A stretch of DNA of 64,000 nucleotides from Acidobacteriota bacterium (GTDB lineage Bacteria; Acidobacteriota; Terriglobia; Acidiferrales; UBA7541), in NCBI GenBank assembly GCA_003223245.1, contig QHYI01000109.1:1-64000 (forward strand), read 5' to 3'. The notes beneath the pieces are model-generated. The model saw only the letters and a list, made by a program, of their open reading frames with translations, was not told where the DNA came from and did not search any database. Numbering within the stretch: the stretch's first letter is position 1; each line of letters opens with the position of its first letter. The position numbers and the translations under genes are program-made. Shown here piece by piece: positions 7,905 through 50,135 of this stretch.

Positions 7905-8334
7905 TCACAACCTAGAGCGTTCCCTTGCTTCCGCAACTTCCTTGGCCTCGTCGGGACTCAGCAGAGAATCTCTGCAGTAGCCTTCGCCGATCTTGCAAGC
8001 CAAAAGATTTCTGTCGTGTTCGCTCTTGCCGGCTTCTTGCGCTTGCTCCGGCGTCAGCAACGATTTGTCGCATGCGCTTTGGCCGATTTCACATGCCAGC
8101 AGTCGGCCACTTCCTTCGCCTCGCCTGGTGAAAGCTCGGAACGATCGCAGACCGCATAGCCGGTCAGGCAAAATTCCATAGGTCGCGATCATGTTCGAGC
8201 GCCTTAATTTGCTGCGCCTGGTCTTCCGTCAAAAGCGAACGATTACAGCTCGAGAAACCAGCCAGGCAATCGCGCAGGTTTTGGTTTTTGTCCGGACCTT
8301 GGCTTTCGGCGAAGGCGGCCGTTGCCAGAGTAGC
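7905..8334 (-). pseudogene. Decayed cysteine-repeat protein gene
   Basis: Reading the minus strand in three frames gives successive units of one repeat: NLRDCLAGFSSCNRSLLT, then FCLTGYAVCDRSELSPGEA, then LLACEIGQSACDKSLLTPEQ, then LLACKIGEGYCRDSLLSPDE. Each has the pattern Cys-x6-Cys followed by Leu and an acidic helix, as in the intact gene at 47848. The frame changes near 8170 and near 8070, and no start codon precedes the first unit; the sequence that looks like the end of a signal peptide (ATLATAAFAE) begins directly after the GroEL stop codon. It is therefore a broken gene with a missing 5' end and at least two frameshifts. Confidence 0.75.
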
Positions 8335-8493
8335 TCAGTACATCCCCGTGCCCGCGCCGGGGGCCCCTGCGGCGGCTGCCTTCTTCTCTTCTTCCTTAAT
8401 CTCCGCCACTAGTGCTTCGGTTGTAAGCATTAGCGCGGAGACCGAAGCTGCATTTTGCAGCGCCAGGCGTGTGACCTTTGCCGGATCGAGAAC
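8335..8493 (-). pseudogene. groEL: groEL 3' fragment (last 51 codons)
   Basis: On the minus strand this stretch reads [18 protein letters not shown], then [18 protein letters not shown], then an Ala/Gly/Pro-rich tail ending GTGMY and a stop at 8335-8337. This is the canonical C-terminal end of GroEL: the last equatorial helices, including the Asp that corresponds to E. coli Asp495 of the nucleotide pocket, and the Gly/Met tail. It has no start codon and is separated from the main groEL gene by the serine recombinase element. Joined to residue 492 of the upstream part it gives a normal-length GroEL of 543 residues. Confidence 0.9.
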
Positions 8494-8512
8494 CCTCACT
8501 CAGGATGCCTGG
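8483..8512 (-). other. Predicted attachment site (groEL 3' side)
   Basis: Junction between the element and the groEL 3' fragment. On the minus strand the element side reads AGGCATCCTGAGTGAG and the groEL side GGTTCTCGATCC; the presumed core GT is at 8492-8493 (AC on plus). The recombinase stop TGA is within the site. Confidence 0.7.
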
Positions 8513-10628
8513 CATTATCATCTCCTTCGTTTTCAGCGAACAAAGGCGGCTGATTTTCCGTGCGGCCCCTCGCTAGCATCAGCTTTCCGGTCCGAAGGAG
8601 GCGCTCAACGATGCTCCGCACCGGTTCGGCACTCAGATCCGCGCGGCGAATTTCCCAAGGGGCGCGAGGAGCAGTTTGTTCGCACTTCAACAGGCCTGCC
8701 TCCACGAGCCGTTCGATTGTGCGGTGACTCACGCCACATACTCGAGCGGCCTCGCTCAAACTAACTCTCTCAGGATCGGGTAGCGCGCGTTTTTGACCAG
8801 GAATTGAATAGTTGCGCCGAGCCGTGGCTACACGATTCTGATTCCATCGTTTCCCTTTTCCCGTGGAATGCCCAAGTCGGTTCAAAACGGAAGCAATCTG
8901 GTCGTCACCGTGGCGTACGGACATCCGACGAATGATCTCCAACGCTTCCATGGGTGTGGTCATCTCGGTCGCGGGACGAGGCCGTTCCATCTCGAGCTGA
9001 GTGTGCGTACCTCCGCTCCAGTGAATAGTGAACTGCAGAGTTTTGTTCTGCTTTTCTTCGCGCACGATGATCTCTTCTATGGCTGTGCGAAAGATCATCT
9101 TCTTGAGGGTCGGCGGACAGCGATCGCTTCGCCAGATTTCAGAAAAGTTCGCACCCATCAAACGAATTCTGGTTTCCTCTTCGGAAGACAACGAATAGTG
9201 CTTCTCATTGAGGCTGGAAAGTCGTTGTTTGACGGTCGTGATCTCCTCCAGCTTTTCGTTCCAGCGACGCTCCAATTCGCCAGCTACCAAACGATTCCTG
9301 GCATCCACCGTATCGTATTGTTCAAACGCCTTCTTGGCCTCGTACTCGAGCTGCTCGAGTTTGCTCGACAGGGTGGCCCGCTGTGCGGCATCTCCTGCGC
9401 TCAATCCCTCAAGTGCCCTCAGACTGGCTTCCACCCCAAAAGGTGAGATCACTCCCAGCAGTTCTTGCCCCAACCGGCGGTCCACCGAAGCCCCTCCAAA
9501 GCCGAGGCAATATTGCCCACCGTCGTCATAGTCTCCTTTGCAGAGGTAACGCGCATGGGTGCCGCTGCCTCCCCAGTAGCGCACATGCAGTTTCCGCCCA
9601 CAGTGGCCACAGCGCAGAAGTCCCACCAGAAGACCTTGCCCAGCACGGATCGCCGCCATGGTTTCGTCGCTCTGCCAGTTCACTGAATTACGCCGGGTCA
9701 TTCGTTGGTTCTCTTCATAGGTGGCCCAGTCAATATAACCTACGTGATGATCGCGGATGAAGACCCGGCAATCTTCTGCTCGGCGTTTGGCACTTTGACG
9801 TTTTTCTAGCCTGCCCTCGATCAATAAAGTCTCGACCGGGCGACGGCCCCAGACATAGGCGCCGGCATAGAAGGGATTGCATAGAATGTCGCGGACCAAG
9901 CTCTGGGTCGGAATCTTCCAGACGAGCCGCGTTCCCTGGATTGGGTTGGCTGGTAACTCTACGTCGTGATCCCGAAACCACTGGAACGTTTGCCGCACGC
10001 TCCACCGTTCACGGAACTTTGCGAATACGAGCCGAATGGCTTCGCAAATCCGTTGATCGGGATGCAACGCGATCTTACCCAGGGGGTCCTGGACATAGCC
10101 GACCGGAAGCCTCTTAAACAGCTCACCGCGGCGTGCTTTGGACTCTTGGCCCGCCTGCATTCGTTGCCGAAGAACCTTAAGTTCGACGACGCTGAGTGTC
10201 CCCTTGATGCCCATGACCAGTTGGTCGTCAAGATAGTTCAAGTCATACACCTGTTGCTCGTCGGCGATCAGGGTTCCAAAAATCTGGCACACCTCCAGCA
10301 ACCGGCACCAGTCCTTGTCCGTGCGCGACAGCCGGGAGGCCTCTCGACTGGCAACGATTCCCACTTCCCCTAACGCTACCGAACTGAGTACACGCTCAAA
10401 TCCATCGCGGCGCGCGGAAGCGATGGCCGCGCTGGATCCAAGATCGCAATTGATAATTTCCACCTCCTTCCAACCCAGGGCACGCATCCGCTCGGCCACG
10501 TCGTACTGAAGACGCTGGCTTTCCTTGTTCTGCCGTACCTGTTTATCGCTGGATTGCCGTAGATAGACGATGGCTTTGCGAGCCAGGTGCTCTGCTTTAA
10601 TCTTGGGATTGCACTGTATCTCTAGCAT
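8496..10628 (-). CDS. Large serine recombinase
   Basis: 710 residues. The N-terminal resolvase domain contains YLRQSSDKQ with the nucleophile Ser26, an AEDERD-type region replaced by [18 protein letters not shown], and the Arg-rich [14 protein letters not shown] motif. It continues with the recombinase domain (~170-290), a zinc beta-ribbon with CGHCGRKL and later Cys residues (~350-385), a coiled coil, and a C-terminal helix-turn-helix ([20 protein letters not shown]) near residue 650. These enzymes cut both strands with 2-base staggers and integrate or excise DNA without extra factors, excision often needing a directionality factor. Start chosen at ATG 10628, preceded by AAGGAGG; the TTG one codon earlier is less likely. 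It overlaps the small gene upstream by 32 bases, so translation is probably coupled. Confidence 0.93.
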
Positions 10629-10773
10629 CAACTGTTCCTCCTTCCGCTTGAAAGACCGCCATCAAAATGCGGGCCATGAGATCGATGATTTCGGTCTGTG
10701 CCTTTGCGTCCATCGGCACGGCGACGCTTTCCGTTGGGATCTTCAGAACCAGAAGTTGTAGTTGCAGCACGCT
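10597..10773 (-). CDS. Small element protein (58 aa), possible recombinase accessory factor
   Basis: Start GTG 10773 was chosen because GGGAGG lies directly upstream. The protein begins MLQLQLLVLKIPTESVAV, has a hydrophobic helix in IIDLMARILMAVFQAEGG and ends in the recombinase start region, overlapping it by 32 bases. Similar short frames, to my recollection, sit before related recombinases, which suggests a real gene. Its place in a recombinase operon makes an accessory or directionality role possible, but there is no recognised domain and this is inference. Confidence 0.55.
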   Translation of the reverse strand, partial: SVLQLQLLVLKIPTESVAVPMDAKAQTEIIDLMARILMAVFQAEGGTVDARDTVQSQD

Positions 10774-11014
10774 CACCTCCCTTGCATCCATCAACAACTG
10801 TCTGCAGAAGGTTATCGTGAACGTGGCCTTCAGGGTCGGGTAGTGATAGTAACGATGCTAGAGAGAGAAGAGCTTTCTTACTCAGATGCGGTCGCTCGGT
10901 AATCTTGATCTCAGCGCAATCCGACGACAGCATCCACACCGGAATTTTCAGGCGTCTCCCCGTTGGGTCGATGACAGATACAGCGCCATCTCCCCGCTTC
11001 GGCCTGCGGATCAC
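10628..11014 (-). CDS. Small element protein of unknown function (128 aa or shorter)
   Basis: From GTG 11014 the frame reads MIRRPKRGDGAVSVIDPTG, then LKIPVWMLSSDCAEIKITE and LSKKALLSLASLLSLPDPEG, a plausible small globular protein. The last ~55 residues are Arg/Gly/Ser-rich and overlap the 58-residue gene in another frame, so the ancestral protein may have been shorter (~80-95 residues). Its stop codon overlaps the recombinase start as TGATG. It is the first gene of the three-gene element operon. No known domain; a DNA-binding or regulatory role would be a guess. Confidence 0.5.
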   Translation of the reverse strand: MIRRPKRGDGAVSVIDPTGRRLKIPVWMLSSDCAEIKITERPHLSKKALLSLASLLSLPDPEGHVHDNLLQTVVDGCKGGERAATTTSGSEDPNGKRRRADGRKGTDRNHRSHGPHFDGGLSSGRRNS

Positions 11015-11079
11015 TTGGAGCGATGCGCCATGGAGAGGATGGAATGGATAGAAGACTTGGACGGACGTGTTTTCTACGC

Positions 11080-12657
<1,578 letters not shown>

Positions 12658-12978
12658 TTACCTCTTTGCGGAAGCCGCCTTCGCCGCTTTTGCGTACTTG
12701 CCCAACACGTCTTCTTCGCGAAGAATCAAATAGTCTTCGTCTTCGATTCTGATTTCCGTCCCGCTGTACTTCCCAAAAAGCACGCGGTCGCCCACGGCCA
12801 CATCCAGGGGAATCCGCTTGCCCTCGTGCAGTTTGCCTGCGCCCACGGCAATGACCTCCCCTTCTTGCGGCTTCTCTTTTGCCGTGTCGGGTACGATGAT
12901 GCCTCCCTTCACGGTTTCCTTTTCCTCGGTGCGCTTCACGAGGACGCGGTCGTGTAATGGTGTCACTCTAGCTGCCAT
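12658..12978 (-). CDS. groES: GroES co-chaperonin
   Basis: 106 residues, slightly longer than usual because of an Ala/Lys-rich tail ([13 protein letters not shown]). It begins [15 protein letters not shown] and has [18 protein letters not shown], containing the mobile loop that docks on GroEL, then [14 protein letters not shown]. It forms the heptameric lid of the chaperonin. It is the first gene of the groESL operon, with a CIRCE operator ~350 bases upstream. Intact, unlike groEL. Confidence 0.97.
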
Positions 12979-13331
12979 CTTTTTAACCTCTACAAAACTG
13001 GTATTTCTCTTTGCAAGCTGTTCACCGGATTCAGAGTTGCGCCCTAAGTGGCGCTAGCCGCATACAATTTGCACGAATAGGAAGGCCGAGCGGTGCGCTC
13101 AACCGGAGCCTCACTCGTCAGTGTATGGATCTCCCTCAACTGCAGGGAAGCCCCTAGGCTCGCCCATCTCGTTTGGTTGGCGCGCCGGCGGATGGAACCT
13201 CGGTGCAAATTCGGGCTGATTGCAGCTCTGGAGACTATGCCCATCATGCGATTCTTCGTTAGCATCACTTCCCACCTCAACCGTGAAAATTATTCTGCTG
13301 AGCCGCCAAGGAAGGGCGCTAAGGACTTGCT
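12979..13331 (-). other. Long groES leader region
   Basis: The stretch between the CIRCE operator and the groES start is ~350 bases, long for a groESL leader. Short open frames on both strands lack support. No known thermosensor or riboswitch was recognised. Confidence 0.4.
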
Positions 13332-13358
13332 TTGGCACTCTCCCTTAGCGAGTGCTAA
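13332..13358 (-). promoter_or_regulatory. CIRCE operator (HrcA binding site)
   Basis: TTGGCACTC and GAGTGCTAA flank a 9-base spacer, on both strands matching the CIRCE consensus TTAGCACTC-N9-GAGTGCTAA with one mismatch. It overlaps the -10 region of the groES promoter, so HrcA binding would repress groESL at normal temperature. Confidence 0.95.
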
Positions 13359-44393: not shown

Positions 44394-47096
44394 ATGTCAC
44401 GCAAATCACTTCGTTTCATCTCGGTCTCGTGCCTTGTTCTGCTTTGCACTTCTTATTTACGAGCCCAATCTACGTCGAACCCAGCTTCTTCCACCACGAC
44501 ACCCCGTCCACCTTATTTGGACCCGAGTGTGCCTATTGAGCAGCGCGTCGACGACCTTGTTACGCGCATGACCATGGAAGAAAAGGCTTCCCAAATGCAG
44601 GACGTCGCCCGCGCCATCCCGCGCCTCGCAATTCCCGCTTACAATTGGTGGAACGAAGGCCTGCATGGTGTCGCGCGCGCCGGGCATGCCACGGTCTTTC
44701 CGCAGGCCATCGGCTTGGCCGCTACCTGGGACAGCGATCTCGTCCACCGCATTGCCGGTGTCATCTCGACCGAAGCTCGCGCCAAGTACAACGACGCCAT
44801 TCAGCACGGAAATACCGGCCGCTATTTCGGCCTGACCTTCTGGTCGCCCAACATTAATATCTTTCGCGATCCCCGCTGGGGGCGCGGCCAGGAAACTTAC
44901 GGAGAAGATCCCTTCCTTACCGGCCGCATTGGCGTAGCCTTTGTTACCGGCCTGCAAGGCGAAGATCGCAAATATTTGAAAACGGTTTCAACTCCAAAGC
45001 ATTTTGCCGTTCACAGCGGCCCGGAAACATTGCGTCACCGCTTCGACGTCCCCGTTTCCCCGCACGATTTTGCGGATACCTACGCTCCCGCATTTCGCGC
45101 CACGGTGATCGAAGGCCATGCTGATTCCGTGATGTGCGCCTATAACGCGGTGCGTGGAGCACCAGCGTGCGCGAATCAATTTCTCTTGGACACGTTGCGC
45201 AATAAGTGGGGATTCCAAGGCTATGTCGTTTCTGATTGCGGGGCCATCAGCGATATTCATCAGGGCCACGGCTTCGTTCTTACACTGCAACAGGCGGACG
45301 CCCTCGCGGTCAAAGCGGGAACCGATTTGAGCTGCGGCCCGGAATACGCGGCGCTGCCTTTCGCCGCGGAGAATCGCCTACTCTCACCCGCGGACGTCGA
45401 TCGCGCGGTGAAGCGTCTGTTTGAAGCGCGATTGCGCCAGGGCCTGTTCGATCCGCCGGACTCGGTGCCCTGGTCGAAGCTGACTCTCGCCGACAACGAT
45501 ACGCCGGCGCATCGGCAACTGGCTCTCGAGGCCGCGCGCAAATCCATCGTGTTGTTGAAGAATGAGCGCAACTCGCTGCCGCTGAAGTCTTCCGTGAAGT
45601 CCATCGCCGTCGTCGGCCCCAACGCCGATTCCTTGCCGGTTCTGCTGGGCAATTACAATGGGACTCCTTCCGCCTATACCACCATTCTCGAGGGCATTCG
45701 CAAGCGCTTCCACGACGCCAAAATCAGCTATGCCATCGGCGCTCCCCTCACCGAAACGAGCGGCGTCGCGATTCCCGCCTCAGTTTTTCTGCCCAACACT
45801 CAGGGCAGCGTACCGTACGGCAACGTCGTGCCCTGCAAAGGTGTGCCGGTCCCCGGACTCTCTGCTGAATTCTTCGCCAATACCACGCTCTCCGGTTCAC
45901 CCGTTGCTACGCGCGTCGATCCGTCAGTGAATTTCGAGTGGAACAATGTCTCCCCAGCGCCTGGTGTCCCGGCCCAAAACTATTCCGTCCGATGGTGTGG
46001 CAATTTTATCCCTCCTGTTGATGGTGACTATCGCTTGGGCGTCGACACCGACGGCGGGTCCCGGCTCTTCCTCGACGGCAAAAAAATTATCGACGATTGG
46101 GCCCCGCATGGTGCGCGTGTAATGACCACGCTCGTGCACTTGCAAGCTGGCCATGCTTATCCCATTCGCATGGAATATTTTCATCATTCTTGGGAATCCA
46201 CTGCGCGCCTTCTCTGGCTGCCGCCAGATCTAGTTCAAGAAGCCGTCGAGGCCGCGCGCAAATCCGATGTGGTCATCGCCGTGGTGGGCCTGACTGGTCA
46301 ACTCGAAGGCGAAGAATCGGAAACCAGTGCTCCGGGCTTTTTCGGGGGCGACCGCGTCGATCTCGATCTCCCTCGTCCTCAACAAGAACTTCTCGAAGCT
46401 CTCTCCGCCACCAGAAAGCCGCTCATCGTCGTTCTCACCAGCGGCAGCGCCCTCGCGGTCAACTGGGCTCAGGAACATGCCGCCGCCATCCTCGAAGCCT
46501 GGTATCCGGGCGAAGAAGGCGGCACTGCCGTGGCCGACGTTCTTTCGGGCGAGTACAATCCGGCTGGCCGCTTACCGGTCACCTTCTATAAATCCGTCGC
46601 GCAACTCCCGCCCTTCACCAGCTACAGCATGAATGGGCGCACGTATCGCTATTTCGCCGAGCAGCCGCTCTATCCTTTCGGCTTTGGTTTGAGCTTTTCT
46701 TGGTTTAACTACTCCGACGCAAAAATCGTACCGGACCAAGTCGCCGCCGGCACCCCCGTGACGGTGTCCGCTCTCGTCACGAACGCCAGCTCCGCTCCCG
46801 GCGACGAAGTCGTCCAGCTTTATCTGTCGCATCCTGGCGTCGATGGCGCTCCCCTTCGCGCGCTCGCCGGTTTCCAGCGCATCCATCTCGCGGCGTCCGC
46901 TTCGCAAACGGTCAGGTTCACGTTACACGACCGCGACTTGAGCATTGCCGACGAGGACGGTGTTCGTCGCGTCGCCCCGGGCCCGGTGGAGGTCTGGATC
47001 GGCGGCGGCCAGCCCATCTCCGGTCCCGGGCAGCCGTCTACCAAGGGCGTCTCCGCAAAATTCACTATCACTTCTGCGGCTACGCTTGACGACTAG
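44394..47096 (+). CDS. Secreted GH3 beta-glucosidase/xylosidase with PA14 domain
   Basis: 900 residues with a signal peptide ending YLRAQ. The GH3 N-terminal barrel reads MTMEEKASQMQDVARAIPRL, YNWWNEGLHGVARAGHATVF, RDPRWGRGQETYGEDPFLTG, and the catalytic nucleophile lies in GYVVSDCGAISDIH. The GH3 C-terminal domain follows, split by a PA14 domain (~470-600, DGDYRLGVDTDGGSRLFLDG), and the chain ends with a fibronectin III-like domain. It should act on beta-linked xylo- or gluco-oligosaccharides outside the cytoplasm. Start ATG 44394 lies ~270 bases from the divergent rpsP. Confidence 0.95.
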   Translation: MSRKSLRFISVSCLVLLCTSYLRAQSTSNPASSTTTPRPPYLDPSVPIEQRVDDLVTRMTMEEKASQMQDVARAIPRLAIPAYNWWNEGLHGVARAGHATVFPQAIGLAATWDSDLVHRIAGVISTEARAKYNDAIQHGNTGRYFGLTFWSPNINIFRDPRWGRGQETYGEDPFLTGRIGVAFVTGLQGEDRKYLKTVSTPKHFAVHSGPETLRHRFDVPVSPHDFADTYAPAFRATVIEGHADSVMCAYNAVRGAPACANQFLLDTLRNKWGFQGYVVSDCGAISDIHQGHGFVLTLQQADALAVKAGTDLSCGPEYAALPFAAENRLLSPADVDRAVKRLFEARLRQGLFDPPDSVPWSKLTLADNDTPAHRQLALEAARKSIVLLKNERNSLPLKSSVKSIAVVGPNADSLPVLLGNYNGTPSAYTTILEGIRKRFHDAKISYAIGAPLTETSGVAIPASVFLPNTQGSVPYGNVVPCKGVPVPGLSAEFFANTTLSGSPVATRVDPSVNFEWNNVSPAPGVPAQNYSVRWCGNFIPPVDGDYRLGVDTDGGSRLFLDGKKIIDDWAPHGARVMTTLVHLQAGHAYPIRMEYFHHSWESTARLLWLPPDLVQEAVEAARKSDVVIAVVGLTGQLEGEESETSAPGFFGGDRVDLDLPRPQQELLEALSATRKPLIVVLTSGSALAVNWAQEHAAAILEAWYPGEEGGTAVADVLSGEYNPAGRLPVTFYKSVAQLPPFTSYSMNGRTYRYFAEQPLYPFGFGLSFSWFNYSDAKIVPDQVAAGTPVTVSALVTNASSAPGDEVVQLYLSHPGVDGAPLRALAGFQRIHLAASASQTVRFTLHDRDLSIADEDGVRRVAPGPVEVWIGGGQPISGPGQPSTKGVSAKFTITSAATLDD

Positions 47097-47198: not shown

Positions 47199-47654
47199 GT
47201 GCCAGCGCAACCCGATCCGCCGTCTAACTCTGTTTTAAAGAACCCTTCCTTCTACTCGAAGAGCCTTCTCGTTGCGGTTGCGCTCATGGTTGGCTGGATT
47301 TTCTTTTCCCGCTGGTGGCAAAACCGCTCCATCGAATATCGTCTCCGGCAGGAACGCGCGGAAAAGCAGCGCGCAGATGACCGCGCGGCGCTCGAACAAA
47401 TGGGCGGTAAGGAACTTGCCATCCAGACCTTTTACGCCACTCCCGGTGAGATTCGCCGCGGCCAGTCTGTCCAACTCTGCTATGGGGTCGCGAACGCCAA
47501 AACCGTCGAGCTCGAGCCGCAATCCAACCCCGTCTGGCCTTCCTACACCCGCTGCGTCGAAGTCGCTCCCGCCAAAACCACCACTTATACGCTCACCATC
47601 CGGGACGCTGCCGGAAACAGCAAGTCCCAGTCCCTCACGATCACGGTTCGCTAG
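47199..47654 (+). CDS. Membrane-anchored protein with Ig-like domain
   Basis: 151 residues. One membrane segment (LLVAVALMVGWIFFSRWW) near the N-terminus is followed by a charged coiled-coil stretch (YRLRQERAEKQRADDRAALE) and a beta-rich C-terminal domain (FYATPGEIRRGQSVQLCYGV, TYTLTIRDAAGNSKSQSLTI) similar to bacterial Ig-like folds. Probably extracytoplasmic. Starts GTG 47199. It follows the GH3 gene by ~100 bases. Function unknown. Confidence 0.6.
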   Translation: MPAQPDPPSNSVLKNPSFYSKSLLVAVALMVGWIFFSRWWQNRSIEYRLRQERAEKQRADDRAALEQMGGKELAIQTFYATPGEIRRGQSVQLCYGVANAKTVELEPQSNPVWPSYTRCVEVAPAKTTTYTLTIRDAAGNSKSQSLTITVR

Positions 47655-47698: not shown

Positions 47699-47717
47699 TA
47701 TATCGTAATGCGATATA
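47699..47717. promoter_or_regulatory. Candidate operator, perfect palindrome
   Basis: TATATCG and CGATATA flank the pentamer TAATG. The arms resemble operators of small dimeric regulators (PadR-like or MarR-like). It lies 131 bases before the cysteine-repeat gene, and the downstream part reads CGATATAATGG, which also contains a TATAAT-like -10 hexamer. Confidence 0.4.
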
Positions 47718-47847
47718 ATGGAACCCGCGCGAGATAACCCCGACGCGGAATCGAGCGTCTATTCTAGGGATGGCCCATGGCATGCGATGACCTGCCGAGT
47801 AGAAACGGTGAAGCGTCGGAAAGGGGCCTGTTCCTGGAGGGTTTCGA

Positions 47848-48540
47848 ATGAAATTACAGCATTGGGTTTTCTGCGTCGCGCTGGCTGCCGGCCTTGGCCC
47901 TGCTGCTGTCCAGGCAGCGGCGCAAAAGATTGCCTCCGCGCATGCGGAAAATCTGGAGCATTGCCTGGAAGGCTTCGCGTCCTGCGATTACGCTCATTTG
48001 GACCCGCAGGAAAAACAAGCCGTTCAAGATGTCAATCGGGAAAACAATTTTATGGATTGTTTCCACGGGTTCTCCGACTGCGACAAAAAGCAATTAACTG
48101 CCGAACAGCGGCAGGAAGTGGATCGCGCTCACCGCATTCAGAACCTGCAGAACTGTGTGGACGGCATCGGCGAATGCGACACTTCGCTGCTAAACGACCA
48201 ACAGCGCCAGCAAGTTGCTCTCCTGGCCCGCGTGCGGAACTTCCAGAACTGTTTGGATGGAACGGGAATCTGTGACCCGAAACAACTCACCGACGAGCAG
48301 AAACAACAAGTCGCGGAAGCCAATCACTACAACAATCTGCAGAATTGCCTCGAAGGAATGGGCGACTGCAACCGCGCTCTGTTGAGCGGCGAAGAGCAGC
48401 AAGAAGTCGCGCGCGCGACGCACAATCGGAATCTCCGGCAATGCCTCGACGGCTCCGACACCTGCGATCCTTCCCAGCTCAACGGGGCCGAAAAGCGCGA
48501 AGTTGCCGAGGCGGCCCAGGGCCGCAAAATCTCGAACTAA
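47848..48540 (+). CDS. Secreted six-repeat cysteine-rich protein
   Basis: 230 residues with a signal peptide (~1-26). The mature protein is six tandem ~32-residue units, each starting N-x-x-x-C, then a second Cys seven residues on, then Leu and an acidic helix; for example NLQNCVDGIGECDTSLLNDQ, NFQNCLDGTGICDPKQLTDE and NLQNCLEGMGDCNRALLSGE. The Cys pairs (12 in all) and Gly between them suggest small disulfide-stabilised helical hairpins. ATG 47848 has GGAGGG upstream. A palindromic candidate operator lies 130 bases before. The same repeat is found broken beside groEL. I know of no named function. Confidence 0.8.
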   Translation: MKLQHWVFCVALAAGLGPAAVQAAAQKIASAHAENLEHCLEGFASCDYAHLDPQEKQAVQDVNRENNFMDCFHGFSDCDKKQLTAEQRQEVDRAHRIQNLQNCVDGIGECDTSLLNDQQRQQVALLARVRNFQNCLDGTGICDPKQLTDEQKQQVAEANHYNNLQNCLEGMGDCNRALLSGEEQQEVARATHNRNLRQCLDGSDTCDPSQLNGAEKREVAEAAQGRKISN

Positions 48541-48689: not shown

Positions 48690-50135
48690 TCACGGCAGGG
48701 GATGCTTGGGGCCTTCCCACTTCGGGCTGGTTGCCGCAACGGCGGACACTCTTCGGCACGCTGCAGCGATTCCCTCAGTCAACTTCTGCCCCACGCGTGG
48801 TTTTACTGGAATGGCACCCGAGGCCGACCGGGACTTGCTTGACGGCGCGCTTCGCCGTTTCGCTTTGATTAGGACGTCCACGGAATCCGGGCGGCCGTTC
48901 CAGAAATCCAGGCGGATGCGGCCATCGGGCAGTTGCGAAACCGTGGCCGGGATGGCGCTGGCGGTCAGATACCATCCCGCAGGGAGCACCACCGCGTTGC
49001 GTGAGCGGCCCAGGCTTCGATCGAAGACCAATTCATCGCCGTCGAGTCGGTAGCTCATGGGAGCTGTGTAGGTTTCCGAAATTCGCAAGCGCAAAGACTG
49101 GCCCTCTTTCACTGGCGGAAAAGCAAGCACCACGATTTGCGTTTCCGGCTTGACCGGTTCGCTCGCGTCGATTTTCGCGGCAGCCAGCTCCGCGCCGGTC
49201 ATCAGCCTCGTGGCCAGTTTTTCGCCGGTATCGAGGACGTACGCCGAGGGATCAGAAACCGTGCTTCCCTCGCGAACCACGTTCAAGTACTGTGCAACGC
49301 CTGGACGCGATTCGGTGTAGTCGTGATAAAGGCTGAACGCGTGCGTCTCCGGCTGCTGCAGGAAGTACACGATGTCACGATTTTGGTGAGCGCGCTCGGA
49401 GAGGCGCTGCCGCTCGGTTTCTCCCGGGAAGGGCGCTTCCCAACTGCGCGATTCAGTTGGCGGACGCGGCACCGCCGCGGGACCAGTCTGCGCGCCCAGC
49501 TTCGCGCGGACCACAAGAGGGGCTTCGCCGGCGCTGGCGTTCATGAAGCTGATGGCGATGCGGCCATCGGGTTCCGGCAAAACCTGCGACGGCACGTTGC
49601 AGCCGACAAGTTCGTACCCCGCAGGTAAAACTACACTGTTGCGCTTGATGCCAAGGCCGCGATTGAAAATGATGGCCTCCCCCTCGCGGTAGTAGCTTTT
49701 CGGGTCTTTGTAAGTCTTCACGATGAGCAGGCGGCCGCGCCCTTCCGGCGGAACGGCGCGAGCCAGCTGAATCTTGATGTAACTTTCATCGGCAGCAGCA
49801 TCTGCCATCAGCGGATCCTTGCGGGCTTCCGCCCCGGAGACGACCTCGAAGCGCAGCGCTTCGCCGGTCATGCTGTCGTAAACGGCTTCATTGCTGGCGA
49901 CGCTGCCTTTGCGAATAGGATTGAAGAAAACTTTGGCGCCGGACGTCGTGGCGGAAACTTCATAGAAAATCTTGAAACTCGCGGTATCGGGGGCCAGGAG
50001 TTCGTAGCGCGTGTATTCGTCGGCTTCCGTTTGGCGCGCACCGGTCGCACCAGGAGCTTGCCCTTGCGCGCACAAAGCCGCGGCGCAAGAACACGCAAAC
50101 AGAACGAGGACCAGCAGCGTGGCAGGCTTGGGCAT
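48690..50135 (-). CDS. Secreted protein with internal duplication
   Basis: 481 residues with a signal peptide (~1-23). Two similar halves: the first has FNRGLGIKRNSVVLPAGYEL and PDGRIAISFMN (~170-215), the second FDRSLGRSRNAVVLPAGWYL and PDGRIRLDFWN (~370-420), each followed by a low-complexity tail. Beta-rich, probably periplasmic; no known catalytic motif. The last ~50 residues are basic and Ser-rich. It stands divergent from the metallo-beta-lactamase fold gene; function unknown. Confidence 0.7.
   Translation of the reverse strand: MPKPATLLVLVLFACSCAAALCAQGQAPGATGARQTEADEYTRYELLAPDTASFKIFYEVSATTSGAKVFFNPIRKGSVASNEAVYDSMTGEALRFEVVSGAEARKDPLMADAAADESYIKIQLARAVPPEGRGRLLIVKTYKDPKSYYREGEAIIFNRGLGIKRNSVVLPAGYELVGCNVPSQVLPEPDGRIAISFMNASAGEAPLVVRAKLGAQTGPAAVPRPPTESRSWEAPFPGETERQRLSERAHQNRDIVYFLQQPETHAFSLYHDYTESRPGVAQYLNVVREGSTVSDPSAYVLDTGEKLATRLMTGAELAAAKIDASEPVKPETQIVVLAFPPVKEGQSLRLRISETYTAPMSYRLDGDELVFDRSLGRSRNAVVLPAGWYLTASAIPATVSQLPDGRIRLDFWNGRPDSVDVLIKAKRRSAPSSKSRSASGAIPVKPRVGQKLTEGIAAACRRVSAVAATSPKWEGPKHPLP

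Follow-up and report, generated by a model that had tools for sequence, protein, structure and literature searches.

An exported repeat protein with 32-residue cysteine-pair units in Acidobacteriota and a palindrome predicted to be a MarR-family operator

The repeat gene and its surroundings

In the 64,000-nucleotide stretch of an Acidobacteriota genome analysed here (contig QHYI01000109.1; hereafter the window), an ORF at 47848..48540 on the + strand (ATG start, stop codon included) encodes a protein of 230 aa that had initially been annotated as secreted and as built from six C-x6-C units of about 32 residues. Both descriptions hold. The N terminus (residues 1-25, 47848..47922, +) is a hydrophobic, signal-peptide-like stretch with an AxA-type end (...AAVQAAAQ), at which the exact cleavage site is our estimate, and the six Cys pairs follow each other with a period of exactly 32 residues: unit 1 (residues 34-65, C39/C46, 47947..48042), unit 2 (66-97, C71/C78, 48043..48138), unit 3 (98-129, C103/C110, 48139..48234), unit 4 (130-161, C135/C142, 48235..48330), unit 5 (162-193, C167/C174, 48331..48426) and unit 6 (194-225, C199/C206, 48427..48522), all on the + strand. 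The twelve Cys residues counted initially are those of the mature protein, and one more lies inside the signal peptide.

A chance origin of this Cys register is excluded because shuffling the protein 100,000 times placed at most three of the six Cys pairs in register, a maximum that was reached once, and because a DNA pattern of two consecutive units has 5 matches in the window versus 0 expected. The units can, by contrast, no longer be called near-perfect repeats: their pairwise identity is 31-50% at the amino acid and 44-60% at the nucleotide level, and Tandem Repeats Finder detected no remaining DNA tandem repeat in the gene. Purifying selection acts on the ORF (NG86 comparison with the ortholog of genome G030: dN 0.19, dS 1.41), and the orthologs in G030, G031 and G019 have six units each.

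Upstream on the same strand lie a gene for a secreted GH3 glycosidase with PA14 and Fn3-like domains (44394..47096, +) and one for a 151-aa protein with one membrane segment and a C-terminal stretch that is weakly Ig-like, below the cut-off (47199..47654, +). The 151-aa gene is also found upstream in G030 and G018, and the order GH3 - 151 aa - repeat gene is the same in G030 and probably in G018. A decayed paralog with frame breaks (7917..8286, -) directly follows the 3' end of groEL elsewhere in the window; the intact order, groES-groEL-repeat preceded by a CIRCE element, is seen in G018 (L024). No CIRCE is found near the window's own repeat gene, and the CIRCE at 13332-13358 belongs to the groESL operon in another part of the window. 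Rfam returned nothing in the window.

Three further observations concern the same loci. In the groESL region of the window (8335-12984, -; groES at 12700-12984), groEL is cut near its 3' end: a large ORF for a serine recombinase (8496-10631) is inserted in it and lies between the main piece (11107-12582) and the C-terminal fragment (8335-8499); other groEL copies are present in the host genome. The G018 ortholog of the repeat gene (L021 9617-10296) shifts frame mid-gene, reflecting either a pseudogene or an assembly error. Finally, 48690-50135 (-) encodes an exported-looking protein of 481 aa with two halves that appear similar by eye and with no match in Pfam or NCBIfam.

An exported repeat family and its predicted fold

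To define the family we used as bait the DNA pattern of two consecutive units (N-x3-C-x2-G-x3-C-x4-L, 32 apart), which matched 101 stretches in 84,980 prokaryote species genomes, a few of which may be unrelated, such as L126, a long cysteine-rich protein of another type. The hosts are mostly Acidobacteriota (Terriglobia, Bryobacterales, Vicinamibacteria), along with Massilia, Duganella, Rugamonas, Polynucleobacter, Thalassomonas, Methylonatrum and others. The family also occurs on one IMG/VR contig, and the phage records searched gave no match. On that contig a clade D repeat gene (L045 13512-14297, -) sits at the edge beside genes that look by eye like tail, capsid and portal genes, reflecting either the border of a prophage or cargo carried by a phage. 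A profile search across the phylum found the family in at least 7 of 396 genomes, a lower bound as 8 candidates per genome were scored. Among 36 congeneric genomes 7 carry it, and since it is absent from most of them the family is not essential.

Nearly all complete relatives consist of a signal peptide, repeats (a few to 12 units) and little else. The consensus of 395 units reads R-N-[LVF]-x2-C-x2-G-x3-C-[DN]-x-S-x-L-[TS]-P-x-[EQ]-A-x2-V-x2-A-x-[HR]-x, with conservation of 99% for Cys, 98% for L, 94% for N and 88% for G, values that are somewhat inflated because the pattern itself selects for these residues (N, C, G, L) in both bait units. Spacing of the C-x6-C pairs is exactly 32 in 604 of 625 cases, and in-register arrays keep both Cys in all 605 distinct units, end units being partly selected for Cys. 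The window protein shares the signal peptide, the exact 32-residue period and the motif N-x3-C-x2-G-x3-C-[DN]-x3-L; in the tree it groups with the proteins of G030, G031 and G019 as clade A (support 100/99). Clades B to E, on which the neighbour counts below are based, are our own grouping from the tree and the protein type. A C-terminal segment (CAENGSCYGDIS...GTYVRGHYRS) is added in the Massilia/Janthinobacterium group and a few others; segments of this type occur in L017, L023, L049, L064, L084 and L155, from different phyla, and match nothing in Pfam or NCBIfam.

AlphaFold2, run on an alignment of 64 sequences from which the plasmid-derived row was left out, modelled the six units with a mean pLDDT of 96.7 and a pTM of 0.77, which leaves the long-range shape open; a three-unit piece reached a pLDDT of 94.8. 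Helices are predicted at residues 28-47, 60-80, 92-112, 124-144, 156-175 and 188-204 of the mature protein, and behind each helix come a Gly turn, a loop and a turn of three residues. The model thus predicts with confidence that each unit is one helix of about 20 residues plus a short loop, and that the six units join into a continuous array. The helix is likewise confidently predicted to start with an L-[TS]-x-x-[EQ] cap and to finish with a C-x-x-G cap, where the Cys pair of each unit brackets the Gly turn. The stack of disulfide hairpins suggested earlier is not supported by this arrangement. The acidic helix of the initial annotation is partly borne out: the mature protein has a pI of 4.9, but the median pI of the family is 6.2. 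The simplest pairing in the model is a disulfide within each unit, because a whole 20-residue helix would separate its second Cys from the first Cys of the following unit. DsbA-family proteins are encoded in the host genome, in which VKOR had no match.

The unit was at first called uncharacterised, and the searches agree. In a Pfam scan of 65 members no family matched more than 14 and the matches were scattered and mutually inconsistent, NCBIfam gave nothing relevant to the repeat protein, and a profile search of PDB sequences returned ankyrin/SOCS proteins alone, at E values of 0.06 or worse. Neither the six-unit nor the three-unit model had a PDB fold match at E <= 0.001 (best 0.48 and 0.63), the BFVD fold search gave nothing significant, and a literature search found no paper on the 32-residue unit. 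It therefore constitutes an uncatalogued family that Pfam, NCBIfam and PDB sequence families do not account for, with the proviso that absence from libraries is no proof that it was never described. The sole curated model above the cut-off for the window protein, aRib (PF18938; 33.1 bits), was rejected as an identity, as its longest good match extends over 25 of 71 positions, mostly helix, and 12 of 65 relatives match.

Several known architectures resemble the family in part. Helicobacter Hcp proteins (Sel1-like repeats) are likewise exported and built of helical tandem repeats that each hold a conserved Cys pair; their Cys are separated by seven residues (PMC4792463), and disulfides were observed in HcpB and HcpC (PMC4746701). 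The units described here, however, have 32 residues with six between the Cys and one predicted helix of about 20 residues, whereas Sel1/Hcp repeats have two antiparallel helices per repeat of about 36 residues. The Sel1 profile (PF08238) matched neither the window protein nor its relatives, and SEL1L scored E 3.3 and TM 0.24 in the three-unit fold search. Alpha-solenoids (TPR, ANK, HEAT, PUF) are also tandem helical repeats of about 32-40 residues, from which the family differs in having one helix per unit; the best PDB match of the six-unit search was a PUF protein (E 0.48), with TM <=0.17 among the matches listed.

A palindrome before the repeat gene and a candidate MarR regulon

About 130 bp before the ATG of the repeat gene lies the palindrome TATATCGTAATGCGATATA (47699..47717), a predicted MarR-family operator. 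It overlaps a -10-like hexamer (TATAAT, 47714..47719, +), the sole TATAAT on the + strand of the window, for which a consensus scan found no matching -35. Each of the five congeneric clade A genes is preceded by the palindrome, some 65-215 bp before the start, and the genes of G031 and G019 have two copies. Outside clade A it was found near a repeat gene in L128 only, where it lies before a PEGA-OmpA gene with a clade B repeat gene behind it. The pattern TATCGTRNYRCGATA has nine sites in the 6.3 Mb host genome and the reversed control none; over 36 congeneric genomes the reversed pattern gave one match.

Several host-genome sites belong to envelope genes: before the OmpA/Pal-type lipoprotein gene directly after tolB (tolB-pal operon), before tonB, at the gene of a PEGA-domain protein, full-length relatives of which carry OmpA at their end, at a DUF4142 protein gene, and at a gene for a small membrane protein, behind which an ECF sigma factor containing a zf-HC2 domain is encoded. 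The repeat and PEGA-OmpA genes of G031 are divergent and have the pair of sites between them, and G019 has a further site before a DegP gene that adjoins the repeat gene. Non-envelope sites in the host genome comprise a TPR protein gene, a marR-CLC pair and a ferritin-like gene, in which the site is perhaps internal.

A MarR-family gene was found in 32 of the 36 genomes. When the marR loci were placed relative to the palindrome by tblastn, the palindrome (0-2 mismatches; none in 14 of 29) ended 10 bp (13 bp once) before the marR start at 29 of 30 loci in the genus, compared to none in control windows. MarR-family proteins commonly repress their own genes via such palindromes, and on these two grounds the MarR-family protein is likely the regulator at the palindrome; the marR gene itself looks self-regulated. 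The repeat gene is accordingly placed among candidate targets, and the sites predict that it is switched on together with cell-envelope maintenance genes.

The regulon, with the operator TATCGY-N3-RCGATA (G000 C190:21262-21616 and congeneric genomes), is apparently undescribed. Its marR gene (G000 C190:21262-21582) is followed by a CLC-type channel gene, with a GNAT gene nearby.

Neighbours of the relatives and possible roles

The regulon and the gene neighbours suggest a part in maintaining the envelope. We hypothesize, with a probability of roughly 55%, that the protein is exported to the cell envelope as an all-helical repeat protein stapled by disulfides, has a structural or protective role there and is under MarR control. 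DsbA-type oxidation would join the two Cys within each unit, and the disulfide would pin the end of the helix to the following loop, giving a rigid array that could dispense with a large hydrophobic core. The oxidised helical rod would be periplasmic or sit at the outer envelope, where it may have a structural or protective function without being an enzyme. Its gene would be expressed along with pal, tonB, PEGA-OmpA and the ECF sigma factor once the putative MarR-family repressor leaves its operator. Against this reading, palindrome sites also lie at non-envelope genes (the CLC channel behind marR, the TPR protein and the ferritin-like gene).

Chaperone genes are recurrent neighbours of the family. 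The groESL genes adjoin the repeat gene in G018, G124, L080, L086 and L144 and are near it in L137, and Hsp20 is near it in several loci. These neighbours, and the DegP gene in G019, would fit an ATP-independent periplasmic chaperone of the Spy/CpxP kind, with a helical surface holding unfolded envelope proteins under stress. Spy/CpxP/LTXXQ chaperones are also exported and all-helical and come with a stress or envelope context, and the L-[TS]-x-x-[EQ] at the helix start of the repeat unit resembles their LTxxQ motif. Spy, however, is a short cradle dimer, and the tandem array with its predicted disulfides would be more rigid. Moreover, no hydrophobic cradle is evident (the array has one narrow V/A stripe only), Pfam LTXXQ did not match the window protein at E values up to 5, and L-[TS]-x-x-[EQ] is also a generic helix N-cap, so that we regard a chaperone as unlikely.

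Extracellular roles were weighed in clade D, in which an exosortase gene is present at 12 of 20 loci along with genes for a Wzz-kinase, UpxY and PrsT-like TPR proteins. With unit numbers that vary from protein to protein and no catalytic motif, such proteins could form a rod or filament outside the cell, its length set by the unit number, to space out or cross-link exopolysaccharide. Clade A genes nevertheless lie outside EPS loci, no PEP-CTERM sorting signal was seen on the repeat proteins, and most proteins of the regulon belong to the periplasm or the outer membrane; we consider this matrix or surface role slightly less probable still than that of a chaperone.

The Janthinobacterium and Massilia repeat genes are located inside copper-resistance islands, the basis for a role in binding or buffering metal (copper) through Cys. 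Metal binding had been raised initially and survives at best as a minority reading, as such islands are confined to some Oxalobacteraceae. Twelve regularly spaced C-x6-C Cys in an exported protein of a DsbA-bearing genome instead point to disulfides, Met and His are few, no metal motif is conserved, and metal genes are not among the commonest neighbours at Acidobacteriota loci, all of which makes this the most improbable role by far.

The envelope reading draws on two other neighbour types. PEGA-OmpA genes lie beside both clade A and clade B repeat genes, and in clade C a SYLF/Ysc84 gene is present at 21 of 41 loci, 19 of which have it a short way upstream in the same orientation, against a background of about 2 copies per genome. 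A Burkholderia SYLF protein resembles the Brucella envelope integrity protein EipA, and SYLF domains bind lipids (PMC10787603). In all these counts the loci of one clade share ancestry and do not represent independent events. As the neighbour sets differ between clades, the role may differ as well.

Disulfide-bearing helical repeat proteins, to which the protein would belong, are already known as a kind. The precise definition of the 32-residue unit now describes a recurring exported family for which there is no curated model or fold match, and the copy in the window is linked to a specific predicted operator, to a MarR protein as its candidate regulator and to several envelope genes, making its function testable in cultured strains. 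Acidobacteriota are abundant in many soils and, to our knowledge, their envelope stress biology is barely known; a large unnamed family of soil bacteria, mostly Acidobacteriota, thus gains a first testable role. More tentatively, and with the odds somewhat against it, the family may represent a new fold class: a disulfide-stapled rod with one helix per repeat, spread throughout Acidobacteriota as a passive envelope element, belonging to an undescribed MarR envelope regulon and repeatedly recruited to chaperonin, SYLF, exosortase and copper loci.

A relative on a Cupriavidus plasmid (L018 8917-9852) has C-x7-C units and adjoins a gene for a J-domain protein.
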